Shown here piece by piece: positions 24,046-33,263 of a DNA stretch of 37,240 nt; the stretch's first letter is position 1, and the number at the start of each line of letters is the position of its first letter. Below the pieces are notes generated by a model. That model did not search any database, was not told where the DNA came from, and saw only the letters and a list, made by a program, of their open reading frames with translations. The stretch covers positions 72,678 to 109,917 of the forward strand of contig JAFWMO010000010.1 in the NCBI GenBank assembly GCA_017510705.1, read 5' to 3'. Made by a program: the position numbers and the translations under genes. Origin of the DNA: Candidatus Saccharimonadota bacterium. Its GTDB lineage: Bacteria > Patescibacteriota > Saccharimonadia > Saccharimonadales > Saccharimonadaceae.

Positions 24046-24060
24046 AAATTGTGGTACACT
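24032..24060 (+). promoter_or_regulatory. Promoter of orphan gene A
   Basis: TTGATA (24032-24037), 17-nt A-rich spacer, TGG-TACACT (-10 at 24055-24060). It overlaps the stop of the transposase fragment. Predicted start near 24067. Confidence 0.75.
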
Positions 24061-24066
24061 GAAAGT

Positions 24067-24178
24067 GCGAAACTACAATCTATTTTTCACTTAATCAAGT
24101 AGTGAATGCGGCTATTTACGCAATTTGCTTGATTAAGTAGATTGTAGTTTCGCGACTAAGTAAATAGTCGCATTTTTT
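24067..24178 (+). ncRNA. Structured leader or attenuator upstream of orphan gene A
   Basis: Three competing structures can be drawn. (i) A long stem pairs 24067-24082 and 24090-24099 with 24128-24153, 26 bp in total, with one 7-nt bulge. (ii) A terminator hairpin GCGACTA/TAGTCGC (24152-24171) is followed by six T residues. (iii) TGCGGCTATTTAC (24107-24119) can pair with 24160-24172, which would break the terminator. It may be a cis-regulatory element, or a ~110-nt terminated small RNA. Confidence 0.65.
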
Positions 24179-24210: not shown

Positions 24211-25188
24211 ATGGAAGAATTTCCAAAAGAAAATACAGAACAAGGTGGAGAAAATACTTTGAGCCCAGAATTGCAGGGCCTAGCTGACATGGCTGGGAAG
24301 ATGGGGGAGACACAAGAGAAGAGCTATGAAGAAGCAAAGAGAGACGGAGAACTACCTGAGGGGGTGAGAGATGAGAGGGATTATAAAGAATATTTGGAAG
24401 AGAAGAGAGCAAGGGAGAAGGAGGCAATAGAAACGAAGAAATCGTTTGAGAAGCGCTTGGAGATTAATGAGGTTTTTTACGACCAGATTGCTATTGCTCG
24501 TGTGCGCTACTTAATTTTTAATGATGGCGAAGGTGATATTTGGAATGGTGAATACAATCAAAATCGTAGGAGAATGAATTCGCGCGAGAAATTGGGCGGC
24601 CTAATGGGGTGTCTTTATCTAGGCACGAACAATAACAATGTGGACGATTTGGATTATGTCACCTGGACGACAGCCGACGGTGACACCGCATCGGCTATAG
24701 TTGAAAAGAAATACACAAAGAATAATGAGCTGTTTGAAGATGCTCTTGGTTTCGCATATCTAAATAATGCTTTCAATAAAAAAGCCAGTGATAGGCATAG
24801 GAATGATCCAGAAATAAAAGAGAGAATGGATACTAGCGCATACGAAAAAAATCTTTCTGATTATGTAAATACTCCGAATGACATGATTGATTCTGGTGAT
24901 GTAGACAACATCAAGGCTTTAATGAGAGATTTAAATTTTAAGACAGCATTATTATTTGACTTTGAGCTTGATAAAAAAGGGTATTATCATGTACAAGATT
25001 TACAAAAGGATAGCATAGTTCCGACGCTTAGATCAAGAATAGAGTTGGAGAACCTCTTTTTGCAAGCAATGAGAAAGAATGCCGAAATTGGTAACCCGGA
25101 AGATAAAGAAAAATTCAACGAAATAATCAAATATTCTACGCAAGGAAAAACCGTTGCTGACAGATTAGGGATGGAGGCGTTAAATTAG
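24211..25188 (+). CDS. Orphan protein A (ME[ED]FP family)
   Basis: This is a 325-aa soluble protein with no recognised domain, signal peptide or membrane segment. Its first ~33 residues (MEEFPKENTEQGG and LSPELQGLADMAGKMGE) are almost identical to those of gene B at 26001, and the first 44 nt of coding DNA are identical. After that the two diverge completely. Residues ~35-95 are charged and probably coiled coil. The C-terminal ~230 residues (with YLGTNNNNVDDLDYVTWTT and ELDKKGYYHVQDL) look globular. The ribosome site GAGAGG is good. The gene follows the attenuator-like leader. The function is unknown. Confidence 0.85.
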   Translation: MEEFPKENTEQGGENTLSPELQGLADMAGKMGETQEKSYEEAKRDGELPEGVRDERDYKEYLEEKRAREKEAIETKKSFEKRLEINEVFYDQIAIARVRYLIFNDGEGDIWNGEYNQNRRRMNSREKLGGLMGCLYLGTNNNNVDDLDYVTWTTADGDTASAIVEKKYTKNNELFEDALGFAYLNNAFNKKASDRHRNDPEIKERMDTSAYEKNLSDYVNTPNDMIDSGDVDNIKALMRDLNFKTALLFDFELDKKGYYHVQDLQKDSIVPTLRSRIELENLFLQAMRKNAEIGNPEDKEKFNEIIKYSTQGKTVADRLGMEALN

Positions 25189-25212
25189 TAGCTCCACAGG
25201 GGCTATTTATTT
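25189..25212. terminator. Weak terminator after orphan gene A
   Basis: TAGCTCC-ACA-GGGGCTA stem followed by TTTATTTT. It overlaps the end of the convergent pgeF-like gene. Confidence 0.55.
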
Positions 25213-25887
25213 TGCGACGACGATGGCGAAGCGGGTGGTTTTGTCGCCAGAGGAAGCGGAAGGGAAACGTGGGTCTTTTGCAACGTCAATTTCGGATTCT
25301 ATGATGTTTTCTAGGTTTACGCCCGCACTTAGGAGCTGGGCCGTGGCGGCCTCGGGGATGGTTTGATTATCTAGGGCATAGATTTGGTAATTTCTGGCGC
25401 AAGGGGAAAAGTAGATTTTGAGGCCCGCTGGGTTTACTCCCTCTTTGTCGGCTAAGTTTTGTATGAATTTGGCGGCACCTTGCTGCTCAAGATTTTGGCG
25501 GCCAGAGTGGATAAGGCCGAGTATTTCTGTCTCTGGATCGTAAACCACAATCCCAAGGCAGTCTGCGATGGGGAGGAGAAGGCCTACTCCTTGGATTTTT
25601 GTGTATAACCCGTCTGAAATAGGGATAGTGGATTCCTCTTTTGTGATTATGAAGTCTTTGAGGTTTTCTCTAGTGATTTCAAAATACCTGGCATAATCTG
25701 TGCGGGCGTCGTAGGTGGTATGAATGCGGGCGATATTTTCTCTGTTTAGATCAATACTTGCGCCAAGTTTGGATTGGTTTTCAATAATCTTTGCCTTGCC
25801 CTCTGCGCCAAAAATGCGCATGTTGCCATCTGCTAGGGTGGAGATGGCGATTTTGACACTTTTCTCTGAAAAATCTGGTTTTATCAT
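25207..25887 (-). CDS. Laccase-domain protein (YfiH/PgeF family)
   Basis: This 226-aa member of the DUF152/CNF1-like fold has the conserved metal-binding triad: His in ARIHTTYDA, Cys in IADCLGIVVYD and His in LGLIHSGRQN. Family members were described as polyphenol oxidases, purine nucleoside enzymes and peptidoglycan-editing factors, so the role here is not settled. I use the ATG at 25887. A TGG-TATAAT (25897-25902) is 9 nt upstream, giving a nearly leaderless message. A longer upstream frame runs through low-complexity sequence and the gene B promoter, and is rejected. It sits between orphan genes A and B on the opposite strand. Confidence 0.85.
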   Translation of the reverse strand: MIKPDFSEKSVKIAISTLADGNMRIFGAEGKAKIIENQSKLGASIDLNRENIARIHTTYDARTDYARYFEITRENLKDFIITKEESTIPISDGLYTKIQGVGLLLPIADCLGIVVYDPETEILGLIHSGRQNLEQQGAAKFIQNLADKEGVNPAGLKIYFSPCARNYQIYALDNQTIPEAATAQLLSAGVNLENIIESEIDVAKDPRFPSASSGDKTTRFAIVVAK

Positions 25888-25937
25888 ATTGCCCTGATTA
25901 TACCATTTTCTATTTGTTTGTTTTGTGAAATAAGATG

Positions 25938-25967
25938 TTGATTTTTTTTTTTTTTGTTTTTTATACT
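25938..25967 (+). promoter_or_regulatory. Promoter of orphan gene B with a 14-T run in its spacer
   Basis: TTGATT (25938-25943), 18-nt spacer, TATACT (25962-25967). A run of 14 T residues (25942-25955), then G and T6, makes up nearly the whole spacer. A change in run length would alter the -35/-10 distance, a classic phase-variation layout. Confidence 0.65.
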
Positions 25968-26000
25968 GGGTGTAAATAGCTTTAATTAAGTGAGGTAGAA

Positions 26001-26969
26001 ATGGAAGAATTTCCAAAAGAAAATACAGAACAAGGTGGAGAAAACAACTTGAGCCCGGAGATGCAAGAGCTCGCAGATATGGCGGGGAAGATGGGGGAGA
26101 AAACCGAAGTAGAGACGGAACAAGTTGAGAATACCGAAAAAGAGCCGATTGCCGAAAAGTACTACGAACAGGCAAGAGAAGAGAGGGCGCGGTGGATAGA
26201 GAGAGCTAAAGAAAAAGTAAAGAGGGCGGAAGAGATTGCTCCGGAAGATATTAAGATAGTAACTAATCCCCATCTATACTTTAGCTCTGGTGAAAAAGAA
26301 GGTTGGAAATTAATCGATATCGACAATGAGCAAGATATGCAAACATTTACTGAATATAAGGACCGAGAAATAAAAAAAGCGCAAGAGCAGCTAAAAGAAG
26401 ATTCTGAAGTAGATTTGGATAGAATAGCAAAAAGCTGTTGGAACACGGAACGTATCGGTAAAATTGATGAAAAGCTAAAAAATGGCGAGGAGTTTACTGA
26501 AGAAGAGCTTAAATATATAGAGGTACCAAAATCATTCGACGAAGTTTTTCATCCGTATCCGTTCTTTGACAGTACCAAATACGAGACCCTAAAAAATCTC
26601 GATGCGCTTCTTCACGGTAGTGGTGTTTTCGTAGATGATGGAGGCACGTATGAAGACATCTTGAGGGTAGGGTACACTCGTACTCCACTCGCAATGGCAA
26701 GAGTTAGAGAATTGGCAAAGAAAGACCGCTTAGCCTTGCATAATGATGAGGGAATCCAAGACCTTCTTGAAAATATGGAAGAGAGAAGAGAAGCTAACCC
26801 ATTTGCTGGGGAAACTAATATAAATAGCGAGACTGGCGAAGCTAGGACTTTTACACCAGAGGATAATTACCCGCGTCTTGAAGGGGAATCTGATGAAGAC
26901 TGGGCAAATAGACTAAAACGAATCCAACTAAAAACTCGTTTGGCAGAAAAAAGACAAGAACAAGAGTAA
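26001..26969 (+). CDS. Orphan protein B (ME[ED]FP family)
   Basis: This is a 322-aa soluble protein with no recognised domain or signal. The first ~33 residues are near-identical to protein A; the rest is unrelated. It is strongly acidic and helical (long Glu/Lys-rich segments at about 30-85 and 110-160), with a more ordered central region (FDEVFHPYPFFDSTKYETLKN to GYTRTPLAMARV). The start is secure: GAGG lies 6 nt upstream of the ATG and the N-terminus matches A. Expression may be switched by the T-run promoter. It ends at a bidirectional terminator shared with valS. Confidence 0.85.
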   Translation: MEEFPKENTEQGGENNLSPEMQELADMAGKMGEKTEVETEQVENTEKEPIAEKYYEQAREERARWIERAKEKVKRAEEIAPEDIKIVTNPHLYFSSGEKEGWKLIDIDNEQDMQTFTEYKDREIKKAQEQLKEDSEVDLDRIAKSCWNTERIGKIDEKLKNGEEFTEEELKYIEVPKSFDEVFHPYPFFDSTKYETLKNLDALLHGSGVFVDDGGTYEDILRVGYTRTPLAMARVRELAKKDRLALHNDEGIQDLLENMEERREANPFAGETNINSETGEARTFTPEDNYPRLEGESDEDWANRLKRIQLKTRLAEKRQEQE

Positions 26970-29745: not shown

Positions 29746-29777
29746 TAAAAAATACCCCCATAAGGGGGTAATTTTTT
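29746..29777. terminator. Terminator after orphan gene C
   Basis: TACCCCC-ATAA-GGGGGTA stem with A/T runs on both sides. It lies just upstream of the valS promoter. Confidence 0.85.
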
Positions 29778-32523
29778 ATATATTTTCTTCTTGACGACGT
29801 TGCCACTCTCTATATCTTTCTAGCTCTTCTGGATCGATTTCTTCGCGCTCTATATTCAGCGGCCAGGCTGGATATTCTATGCTCTGATATGTTCCCCAAT
29901 ATTCACGCCCACTGTCTCCAAACTTATTATAGTGCACTATGGTTTTGTCGCCCGTGCGTAGGTACAGAAATGCTTTTTGGTATGCAAGGTCAATACTATC
30001 TTCCATATTATCTCTGTCTAGATGGTCTACACGCACAACGCGTGGATCCTTGAGTGAATTCGCCTTAGACCCATCAAACATTTCTTTGAAATTATCACCG
30101 GGTTTTCCACGGAAGAGGTACATACCAGCATCTACATTAAAGCTTTCCGCGATTACACATAAATTGCCTTCGTATTCAAATTGAAAACCAATATATGAAA
30201 GATCGTCGTCGAGTACTACATTGTCTAGCTTCCCATTGTCTACGTTTGCAACAGGAAATGTGTCAATAAAGAATTTTGGCTTATTTTCTTCTAGGGCATC
30301 ATTAAAATAATTTGCCTCAATGTATTCTTTCCAAGTTTTCAACATTTCAACTTTTCTGACACCAAAATCCTTCGGAGCTTCTGCTTTTAGCTCATCTCCG
30401 CTGTCTACTGCGTCTAGCCGTTTACTTCTTGCATAGAATGTCTCGACTTCTTCGGCTCCGGCTTCCTTGATTTCACCGACCAGCTCTTCCTGCCTTTTTC
30501 TGATTAGCTCATTGATATCTTCACCTGAGGCATTTCTCAAAATTGAGCGGTAAGTAGAAGATCGTTCCTTTCTTTCGGCGTCACGGGCCATTTTTTCAAA
30601 CAGACGTTTTTGTTCATATTCTTGGTAGCTCTCGTTAGCGTTCATAAATTTAGTAATTTTTGCTTTTAGGCTACGTGGGCAATCTTTGTTCTTTTTTAGA
30701 TCTATCATTCTGGAATAGAATTCGTCTGGGTTTTTAGCAAAAATGTTTTCGTAGTACCAGTTAGCTTGCTTGGAGGCTTCACCATTGACACCTTTCAATG
30801 TATTAAGGAAGCCGCTGATTGACTTATTGAATATTTCTGGGTTTGACAAATCTAAATCAAGATTCTGCTCAACGTTGGCCAGATCTTCAGGATTAAATGT
30901 TTGCATCACAAAATAATCTGTATATTTCTTATCGTAATCGGGGGTGTGATTCTCGGCTCCTATTTCTAGAATTTCAACAAATCTTTTTCCCAGTTGTTTC
31001 TTTAGGTGGTCTTGATTAATTTCGGCTACTTCGTCATGAACTAGCGGGTACATCCCAAATTCTCCAAAAGCGCGCCCATATTTCTCTTCCAAATATTTCT
31101 CGATACTTAATGTCCCTATTTCAACTGTTCTTGTTTTTAGAAATCCACCCAAATATACTTCTTCTTTAATTCCCCCGAAAAACTGTTCGGTTGCTTCTTT
31201 TTTGCTTTTTTCTAGTATATTCACATACTCCGCTTCTTGTCTTATACCCAAGGATTCAACTCTTTCTGATACTATTCTCTTTAATTTTTCTGTAATTTTT
31301 TTGTCAAATCTTTCTCGATTATACGAATAACGGCTTTCTTCCCCAACAATACGTGTCCTGTGCGAATAGAAATCATACTTGATTGGATATTCTGTACCAG
31401 ACAGCGCCTGTTCTACAACATGGTCGCTCATGCCAATATATTGATCATTGTAATCCACATGGTTCCAGGCAGCACTGATTATGGCTGGGTCATTTTTATC
31501 TATGCCATATAGCCCAAGAAACTTATCTGACAGTTTGACGTTTTTTCTGTTACATTTAAAATAATCTCTGTATCTCAAACTATCCATTATTTCCTGCTTA
31601 GCTATTTCCGATGCCTGATCAGTGGCGTTAAAGTCCTTTAGCTCTTCAGATATTTTTCCTTTGTTTTTTGTTCGATAATCTTCCCATAGTTGATTTTCAA
31701 TTTCTAAGGCCAGCTCGTTTAGATGATGTTTTCTTCTCTCTCCCTCCGTCCACTTGCGTCTTAATGGTAAGTTGGGATAAGGATTTTCGTCAGAATAGAA
31801 GAATTTATCTAGGGCGGTTTCTTCCGCGCTATTCCAGATTTTTTCTTGGTCAATCTCTACACTTCCGTCTTCGTCTTCTTTTACTGGGATATCACCTCCT
31901 GTGAGCTTGAAAATCTTATTCCTGTAGACGCCTTTTATGTTTACCTGGAGCTTTCCTTGGTATCGTTCTACGCTTTCTAGGACATCCATACGTTCTTTCC
32001 ATGTACACCCTTTTAAGCTATCTAGTAGTTTTTCTGAGATTAATTGGCCTAATTCGTCCACTTTGTTGTCCATCCAAGGCTTCGCCTTCTCCATCTCTGG
32101 CCTCATGGCTTTGTCTGTAATCGTCTCATGATGGATGACTGGACGAGAGCCCCTTTCGTCTTCTGGTTTTTCTAGCCATTCTTTATATTCTGGAGTAGGG
32201 AACAGCACATGTGCATTGCCTTTGTCGTCTTTTGCAAAAGCAAAGCCTTGTTCTTCGAATTCACCAGGATTGAATGGAACACCGTTGCCTTTCATTTCTC
32301 CATAAAGAACTGGGTGGTGTTCCTTCATCCATTTTTCCTCATCGCGAGGTTCTGTAGCTGTAGAAGAAGCTAAAACTGCATCATTCGTCTTGTCGCCTCT
32401 ATCGAGAGCATCCTCTCTGTCTATCGCTTCGTTAGCATCGGTTTGTTCAATATCGTTCTGCTTGGCATTGTTTTGTTCGATATTTTGGTTTTCATTTGTT
32501 GGATTATTTGGAAAATCTTCCAC
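29776..32523 (-). CDS. Large orphan protein C (ME[ED]FP family), putatively phase-variable
   Basis: This 915-aa protein has no recognised domain, membrane segment or signal peptide. I place the start at the GTG at 32523, which has an AGGAG site 7 nt upstream and gives M-EDFPNNPTNENQN, matching the MEEFPKENTEQ start of A and B. An upstream ATG would add 25 residues translated from the leader hairpin and is rejected. Residues 1-65 are Asn/Gln/Asp-rich and repetitive (EQNNAKQND, EQTDANEAID). The bulk is charged and mostly helical. The C-terminal ~200 residues look globular (LSYIGFQFEYEGNLCVIAESF; GMYLFRGKPGDNF). The promoter has a 9-G run in its spacer. The function is unknown; an interaction or effector role is inference. 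Confidence 0.85.
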   Translation of the reverse strand: MEDFPNNPTNENQNIEQNNAKQNDIEQTDANEAIDREDALDRGDKTNDAVLASSTATEPRDEEKWMKEHHPVLYGEMKGNGVPFNPGEFEEQGFAFAKDDKGNAHVLFPTPEYKEWLEKPEDERGSRPVIHHETITDKAMRPEMEKAKPWMDNKVDELGQLISEKLLDSLKGCTWKERMDVLESVERYQGKLQVNIKGVYRNKIFKLTGGDIPVKEDEDGSVEIDQEKIWNSAEETALDKFFYSDENPYPNLPLRRKWTEGERRKHHLNELALEIENQLWEDYRTKNKGKISEELKDFNATDQASEIAKQEIMDSLRYRDYFKCNRKNVKLSDKFLGLYGIDKNDPAIISAAWNHVDYNDQYIGMSDHVVEQALSGTEYPIKYDFYSHRTRIVGEESRYSYNRERFDKKITEKLKRIVSERVESLGIRQEAEYVNILEKSKKEATEQFFGGIKEEVYLGGFLKTRTVEIGTLSIEKYLEEKYGRAFGEFGMYPLVHDEVAEINQDHLKKQLGKRFVEILEIGAENHTPDYDKKYTDYFVMQTFNPEDLANVEQNLDLDLSNPEIFNKSISGFLNTLKGVNGEASKQANWYYENIFAKNPDEFYSRMIDLKKNKDCPRSLKAKITKFMNANESYQEYEQKRLFEKMARDAERKERSSTYRSILRNASGEDINELIRKRQEELVGEIKEAGAEEVETFYARSKRLDAVDSGDELKAEAPKDFGVRKVEMLKTWKEYIEANYFNDALEENKPKFFIDTFPVANVDNGKLDNVVLDDDLSYIGFQFEYEGNLCVIAESFNVDAGMYLFRGKPGDNFKEMFDGSKANSLKDPRVVRVDHLDRDNMEDSIDLAYQKAFLYLRTGDKTIVHYNKFGDSGREYWGTYQSIEYPAWPLNIEREEIDPEELERYREWQRRQEENI

Positions 32524-32578: not shown

Positions 32579-32608
32579 ATGATACCCCCCCCCAGCACGT
32601 TTTGTCAA
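32579..32608 (-). promoter_or_regulatory. Promoter of orphan gene C with a 9-G run in its spacer
   Basis: TTGACA (32603-32608, overlapping the vapC stop), 18-nt spacer, TATCAT (32579-32584). The nine G residues (32585-32593) directly abut the -10. Loss of one G would give the optimal 17-nt spacing. Confidence 0.75.
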
Positions 32609-33027
32609 TTGCCGATTGCCATTTCTAGCACGAATTGTTCTGGGGTGTAGACCTGCACTGGCGAGTCAGCGTAATCTTTCGTGTTCCTTGTGATGATGCA
32701 ATCCATATCTTCGCGGATGGCGGACTCGATTTCTAGGGCATCTTCAAAATCGTTTCTTCCTGAGACAAGTGCCCTACGACAATCATCACTTGTAGTGTCG
32801 ATAATTTTGATCGTTTTAGTGAGCTGTTTTAGGATGTCCCCGGCAAGGGAACTACTATGAGTCTCTCTGCGGATGAGGTAATGCAAGTCCGTTAGCTGGT
32901 TTGCAGAGATGAAACCTTCTAAATAGCCGCGCTCTGCCATTAGCAATATCTGCTGAGCCGATTCCGAGAAAGGCTTTCTATCCCTGATGGCGTCTACAAT
33001 CACACAAGTATCTATTAAAACCCGCAT
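32605..33027 (-). CDS. PIN-domain ribonuclease toxin (VapC-like)
   Basis: This 140-aa PIN-domain protein starts MRVLIDTCVIVDAI with the first catalytic Asp. It has the central acidic motif RNDFEDALEIESA and a late Asp/Asn motif CIITRNTKDYADSP. PIN toxins cleave tRNA or other RNA and are inhibited by a cognate antitoxin. It overlaps the antitoxin gene by 13 nt, so translation is coupled. Its stop codon overlaps the -35 box of orphan gene C. Confidence 0.92.
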   Translation of the reverse strand: MRVLIDTCVIVDAIRDRKPFSESAQQILLMAERGYLEGFISANQLTDLHYLIRRETHSSSLAGDILKQLTKTIKIIDTTSDDCRRALVSGRNDFEDALEIESAIREDMDCIITRNTKDYADSPVQVYTPEQFVLEMAIGN

Positions 33028-33263
33028 TTACTACCGAGCCTTTCGTCTCTGGCTTCTTTTAGGCTGATGCCGCTTGCTGGCAAGACACCAAAAATACTAC
33101 TGATGCTGCTCGTCTTGTGGTGCAGCGCTTCTGTTTTAGGCGACGTTGAAGTGAGCTTTACGGAGACTTTGCCGTTTTTGGCAATTTCAATGTCTTCGCT
33201 TTTTGCAAGCATCAAATATTTGCCTAGATTTTGTTTGAACTCTGTAGCTGTAACTATTGCCAT
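33015..33263 (-). CDS. Phd/YefM-type antitoxin
   Basis: This 82-aa antitoxin has the Phd/YefM N-terminal DNA-binding fold (VTATEFKQNLGKYLMLAKSEDIEIAKNGKV in three short blocks: VTATEFKQNLGKYL, KSEDIEI, KNGKV) and a flexible C-terminal part that should wrap the toxin. The AAAGGA site precedes the ATG. Its promoter is a perfect consensus with a palindromic spacer, fitting autorepression by the toxin-antitoxin complex. Confidence 0.9.
   Translation of the reverse strand: MAIVTATEFKQNLGKYLMLAKSEDIEIAKNGKVSVKLTSTSPKTEALHHKTSSISSIFGVLPASGISLKEARDERLGSKCGF

Follow-up and report, generated by a model that had tools for sequence, protein, structure and literature searches.

The window analysed here is a stretch of 37,240 nucleotides (G000:C18:72678-109917) from a Candidatus Saccharimonadota bacterium, whose genome assembly (G000) consists of 657,694 bases in 19 contigs. 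It contains gene B, an open reading frame of 322 aa (26001..26969, + strand) with no Pfam, PHROG or PADLOC assignment. The start of gene B lies 33 nt downstream of a -10-like hexamer, TATACT (25962..25967, + strand, 5/6 matches), and five nt after a Shine-Dalgarno-like GAGG recognized by eye (25992..25995, + strand). Further upstream a -35-like hexamer is found, TTGATT (25938..25943, + strand), which shares four of six positions with TTGACA. The run listing of the window gave a homopolymer of 14 T at 25942..25955 (+ strand), which is followed in the sequence by a G at 25956 and by six more T at 25957-25962. The last two T of TTGATT belong to T14, and the first T of TATACT is the last T of T6; the spacer proper (25944-25961, + strand) is therefore 18 nt long and reads T12-G-T5, being filled by the run together with G25956 and T25957-25961.

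An earlier sequence-only reading of this DNA had reported the two hexamers at a distance of 18 nt with T14-G-T6 between them. They are as described, both in the sequence itself and in a promoter scan, which recovered the site with 9/12 matches (2 sites in 25800-26060 as compared to 0.6 expected in shuffles) and returned no further promoter-like site on the + strand in the same interval. The 18-nt spacer is within or near the functional range of about 16-19 nt. The gene immediately upstream of gene B is on the opposite strand and codes for a Cu-oxidase_4 (laccase-domain) protein, assigned by Pfam search (25207..25887, - strand); its extended -10, TGGTATAAT, was located by eye at 25905-25897 (- strand). 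To the right, and convergent with gene B, lies a gene resembling that of valyl-tRNA synthetase, as judged from its sequence.

Gene A (325 aa, 24211..25188, + strand) has an N-terminus in common with gene B, although its promoter contains no homopolymer. The block common to the two genes, which comprises the ribosome binding site and the beginning of the coding region (25987..26100, + strand), is 86% identical at the DNA level and 91% identical over 32 aa. Neither gene A nor gene B gave a Pfam match over the cut-off, gene C (915 aa from the GTG at 32523; 29776..32523, - strand) gave none at E<=0.1, and no PHROG or PADLOC match was obtained for any of the three at E<=0.01. Genes B and C had been assigned to the same N-terminal family, and from this it had been reasoned that a homopolymer spacer is carried by two family members out of three. 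This grouping is not supported, and neither is the count built on it. In fact, BLASTP (E<=1e-3) ties gene B to gene A and to a homologue in another genome of the genus (G030), not to gene C; an M-E-E/D-F-P start, seen by eye, is all that genes B and C have in common, and the alignment of ten N-termini contains a single invariant column, M1. That the common N-terminus acts as a translocation or sorting tag is only a guess.

The G030 protein is the one whole-body homologue of gene B in 174 genomes of the genus (38-40%), and its gene is also located beside a valyl-tRNA synthetase-like gene. We observed that this locus (L014, G030:C30) is cut by an in-frame stop near the C-terminus (282 aa). In the homologue search, 19 of 24 rows cover only the last ~100 residues of gene B, and the C-terminal segment of gene B is N-terminal in L016 and L019 (WDSLKDFAGEQNLNS.TGKARTF...). 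This module of ~50 aa, which in gene B spans residues ~264-313 (26790-26939 in the window) and is placed at the N-terminus of these larger proteins, is possibly a tag or a small domain; searched as a regular expression, the tail motif occurs at 3 or more of 22 loci, this being a lower bound. The structure of gene B predicted from the single sequence had a mean pLDDT of 45.5, too poor for a search, and was confident only at residues about 281-310.

T14 is the only run of T or A of at least 12 on both strands of the whole genome, and the next longest T run within the window is 7. The runs of G or C of at least 8 are only two in the genome, and both are contained in -35/-10 spacers. The first, G9 (32585..32593, - strand), is found upstream of gene C in an 18-nt spacer (TTGACA-aaacgtgct-G9-TATCAT), which bears out the earlier claim of a second homopolymer spacer of a different base in the window (TTGACA-N18-TATCAT). 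The second, G11 (about G000:C10:76251-76261, - strand; TTGACA-N17-TATCAT), precedes a predicted surface protein of 843 aa with leucine-rich-like repeats, the type of repeat being judged by eye. Just upstream of the G9 promoter there is also a small overlapping pair of open frames (33015-33263 and 32605-33027, - strand), which by eye looks like a toxin-antitoxin system of the VapB/VapC type.

The T run might be a neutral accident, formed by drift in AT-rich intergenic DNA without mismatch repair and lying between chance hexamers, or else an artefact of the assembly. The origin of the data from a single metagenome-type assembly and the weak -35 would be in keeping with this explanation. MutS_V (PF00488) was not found over the cut-off in G000 (best 10.6 bits), as compared to 11 of 14 control genomes over it, and, because this is a 19-contig, 91%-complete assembly, MutS could sit in the missing part and T14 is to be taken as a consensus length. 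Against an accident stands the location of T14, which has no counterpart of 12 or more among the T and A runs of the 658 kb and yet falls in a -35/-10 spacer. For a 14-nt segment placed at random in the window, 245 of 74,320 positions (0.33%) have such a -35/-10 pair on either side, and for G9 and G11 the corresponding figure is about 0.04% of window positions; both are after-the-fact chances and somewhat too low, since long runs accumulate preferentially between genes. Moreover, both long G/C runs are likewise spacers, and the pattern recurs in other genomes. We consider a neutral accident quite unlikely, and the sequence comparisons support the view that the homopolymer spacers of G000 and of the genus did not arise by accident.

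The pattern TTGACA-n-G8+-n-TATNNT is present in 21 of 174 genus genomes, whereas the reversed-pattern control gave 0/174. The 31 rows obtained correspond to 29 distinct sites, once two double readings of one -35 (in G058 and G138) are dropped. The G run abuts the -10 in nearly all of these sites; on the basis of the pattern's own -10, the spacers range from 12 to 26 nt and the tracts from G8 to G19, although the spacers of L072 and L094 would be shorter if measured to a -10 closer by. A sample of G9+ tracts was also collected irrespective of context (30 loci among the matches listed, taking the first run per genome in 30 genomes), and two N-adjacent tracts, belonging to one locus, were dropped to give 30 clean tracts. 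When a -35 with at least 5/6 matches including TTG and an abutting TANNNT were looked for, 9 of the 30 tracts were promoter spacers, the mirror control gave 0, and the other 21 failed. Many of the remaining G9+ tracts (L107-L136) are located inside long open frames, and slippage in coding regions may exist too.

As judged by eye, 21 of the proteins behind 28 poly-G promoters have a hydrophobic N-terminal segment; one is a small membrane protein, and six are soluble with gene-B-like N-termini, two of these carrying GNAT domains. The orthologous promoters of a secreted MSKTTKIIAALG protein contain G12 in G047, G11 in G111 and G9 in G112, with spacers of 21, 20 and 18 nt, respectively, and closely similar flanks; two related promoters of G050 contain G10 and G14. 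At the sequence level, these differences are direct evidence that tract length changes between species at poly-G promoters, and for the poly-G class the comparisons make a strong case that promoters may undergo phase variation driven by slippage.

With T in place of G, the pattern TTGA-n-T10+-n-TATNNT was found in 2/174 genomes, namely that of the window and G171 (control 0). T12+ runs are ten in total, in 9 of 174 genomes. Three of them lie at contig ends or beside N (L097, L100 and L105), a location that would suit an artefact, and seven are clean. Promoter spacers account for five of the seven, these being that of gene B and four that precede a secreted protein, while the other two (L104 and L106; one in G170, the other a second run in G167) are not in evident promoters. 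The four are found in G139, G166, G167 and G168 as TTGACA-T12-n6-TAAAAT, where n6 is ATTGCG or ATTAGA, and the protein encoded downstream always starts with MKKSQ[IV]LAALALAFALG. Since this gene family is unrelated to gene B, the poly-T spacer must have arisen at least twice, on unrelated genes. The MKKSQ case is, in addition, variable in length between species, as the promoter has T11 and a spacer of 17 in G171 and T7 and a spacer of 14 in G164, as compared to T12 and a spacer of 18.

The sequence-only reading had taken the homopolymer spacers as a sign of selection for switching. The part of this claim that relied on a family comprising genes B and C did not hold. The conclusion itself is nevertheless kept because of the genus survey: the frequency of poly-G spacers against their control, the differences in length and the recurrence of poly-T speak for it, as does the rarity of long runs.

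Poly-A tracts are known to modulate promoters, and T14 could be a static element, either a rigid poly(dA:dT) spacer or a UP-like A tract of the divergent laccase-domain gene, with no switching involved. On that strand, A14 precedes the start expected for the laccase-domain gene by ~52-65 nt, as deduced from the position of TGGTATAAT, and this is close to the range of UP elements. However, the four other laccase-domain homologues found in 40 relatives, which are only 46-50% identical and stand in other contexts, have no A/T run longer than 5 within 150 nt upstream, and with 0/4 the attribution of the tract to this gene was not supported. In other promoters of G000 the corresponding position is taken by poly-G, which does not resemble a UP element, and the remaining poly-T spacers stand before a different gene family. 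A static role is, in our opinion, unlikely.

Upstream of gene A we found a structured leader (24055..24177, + strand) consisting of a -10, a long hairpin and a terminator-like hairpin followed by a U run, as indicated by alignment, folding and shuffles. The same leader precedes the G030 homologue of gene B, and it is conserved in 36 of 174 genus genomes. Twenty copies were aligned, 10 of 30 leader loci being left out since they were missed by the pattern. The -10 is TATAAT-like and the apical GCGGCTATTTACG of the long hairpin is invariant; in the 20 copies, 20 of 35 pairs of this hairpin changed on both sides in a compensatory manner. The fraction of paired cells was 91.4%, as compared to 80.3% in shuffles and 33-42% when the alignment was slid, and no shuffle out of 500 scored as high on any measure; the copy of the window has a z of -7.9. 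On the 3' side of the long hairpin there is a nearly invariant terminator-like hairpin, GCGACTA-AGTAAATAGTCGCATTTTT, and by eye the apical GCGGCTATTTAC is complementary to its 3' part. The leader had no match in Rfam, and a viral origin was discarded after no match was found in viral contigs. For proteins of the gene A/B class, the leader is a candidate attenuator.

The leader of the G030 homologue is a different, structured promoter arrangement, and it raises the possibility that gene B is also transcribed from elsewhere, the T run acting in some other way, for example when transcription reads through from preceding DNA, or in the RNA itself. This is hard to reconcile with the orientation of the upstream gene, which is on the other strand, and with the result of the promoter scan between 25800 and 26060. 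Nor does gene B appear to retain a remnant of the leader, which is lost: the best similarity of its 5' UTR to the leader is the ribosome binding site alone, and 119 of 500 shuffles were as high. A promoter located elsewhere is thus very improbable. A homopolymer promoter in one genome and a leader in another were observed in three homologous pairs, namely gene B and L266 of G030 (38%), L084 and L272 (47%), and L085 and L258 (64%).

We therefore favour, with a probability of roughly 60%, the reading of T14-G-T6 as a slippage-prone spacer within the sigma-70-type promoter that drives gene B, which would make the site a phase-variation (contingency) locus or a rheostat. According to this mechanism, strand slippage during replication, which long mononucleotide runs and a lack of mismatch repair promote, would alter the number of T in the spacer; this number would set the distance between -35 and -10, now 18 nt, around its working optimum, and cells of one population would come to differ in the transcription of gene B. 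The gene B case would then be part of a wider practice of Saccharibacteria, in which the promoters of secreted and other lineage-variable proteins have G or T runs as part of their spacers.

The variation in tract length described above is between species and at promoters other than that of gene B, and the T run of gene B is broken by one G, which counts against switching. Because the -35 matches at four of six positions and overlaps T14, changes in the tract may matter less here than they would with TTGACA. For the T run of gene B we consequently have moderate confidence, based on analogy with the other promoters, in phase variation driven by slippage; that T14 slips within a population, that transcription is affected and that this brings a benefit under selection is what we infer.

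A broader scheme, which we put forward tentatively and regard as possible rather than probable, is a bet-hedging at the level of the genus. Secreted proteins and N-terminally tagged soluble proteins, the latter being candidates for delivery into the host bacterium, would be switched by G- or T-run spacers, and their genes would alternate in evolution between this random control and the regulated control of a terminator-bearing leader RNA. The alternation between slippery promoter and leader is suggested because of the three homologous pairs. Saccharibacteria have reduced genomes and live as epibionts, dependent on other bacteria, and promoter contingency loci would directly mark those of their genes that are exposed to changes in host, phage or community. 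Should tract length prove variable inside populations, existing metagenome reads would yield a ready list of phase-variable genes, including orphans such as gene B, for these bacteria, which are hard to culture.

In open papers, searched mostly by listing, we found no report of promoter phase variation in Saccharibacteria, the Candidate Phyla Radiation, Patescibacteria or TM7x/Nanosynbacter; a hypervariable repeat gene is described in a Gracilibacterium (PMC6851277). The mechanism is not new, because homopolymer-length control of promoters is established and the poly-G spacer design is widespread in bacteria, with at least 119 stretches among genome contigs in many gut bacteria. The poly-G promoters of the genus look like the same design as the poly-G/poly-C spacer promoters of Neisseria, although this belongs to an unrelated phylum and gene B uses T. 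In Neisseria, the length of the spacer tract tunes the transcription of porA and fetA. The poly-A tract of the vlp genes of Mycoplasma hyorhinis is located between -35 and -10, and the poly-T of Helicobacter pylori sabA is at or upstream of -35, whereas the run of gene B fills the spacer between the two hexamers.

Tract length in the promoter also tunes transcription of Neisseria opc, according to work cited in PMC6389960. In Neisseria meningitidis, transcription of nspA is altered when an A tract that precedes the -10 changes by one base, and a section title of the same article states that there is no evidence of phase variation (PMC6389960); its authors report no -35 consensus for nspA, whereas gene B, which similarly has a homopolymer tract upstream of its -10, has a -35-like hexamer. 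In M. hyorhinis, indels in the poly-A of the vlp promoter region switch surface lipoprotein genes between a transcribed and a silent state (PMC10502178). Gene B resembles vlp in having a homopolymer in the promoter region, and differs from it in the base, T instead of A, and in that the vlp switch, in a lipoprotein gene family, was demonstrated experimentally. As regards H. pylori sabA, variation in length within a strain was measured, with 13-16 T in clones of strain 26695 and 16-19 T in J99 (PMC2715451); gene B, for which switching is proposed by analogy, has a poly-T of similar length in its promoter region.
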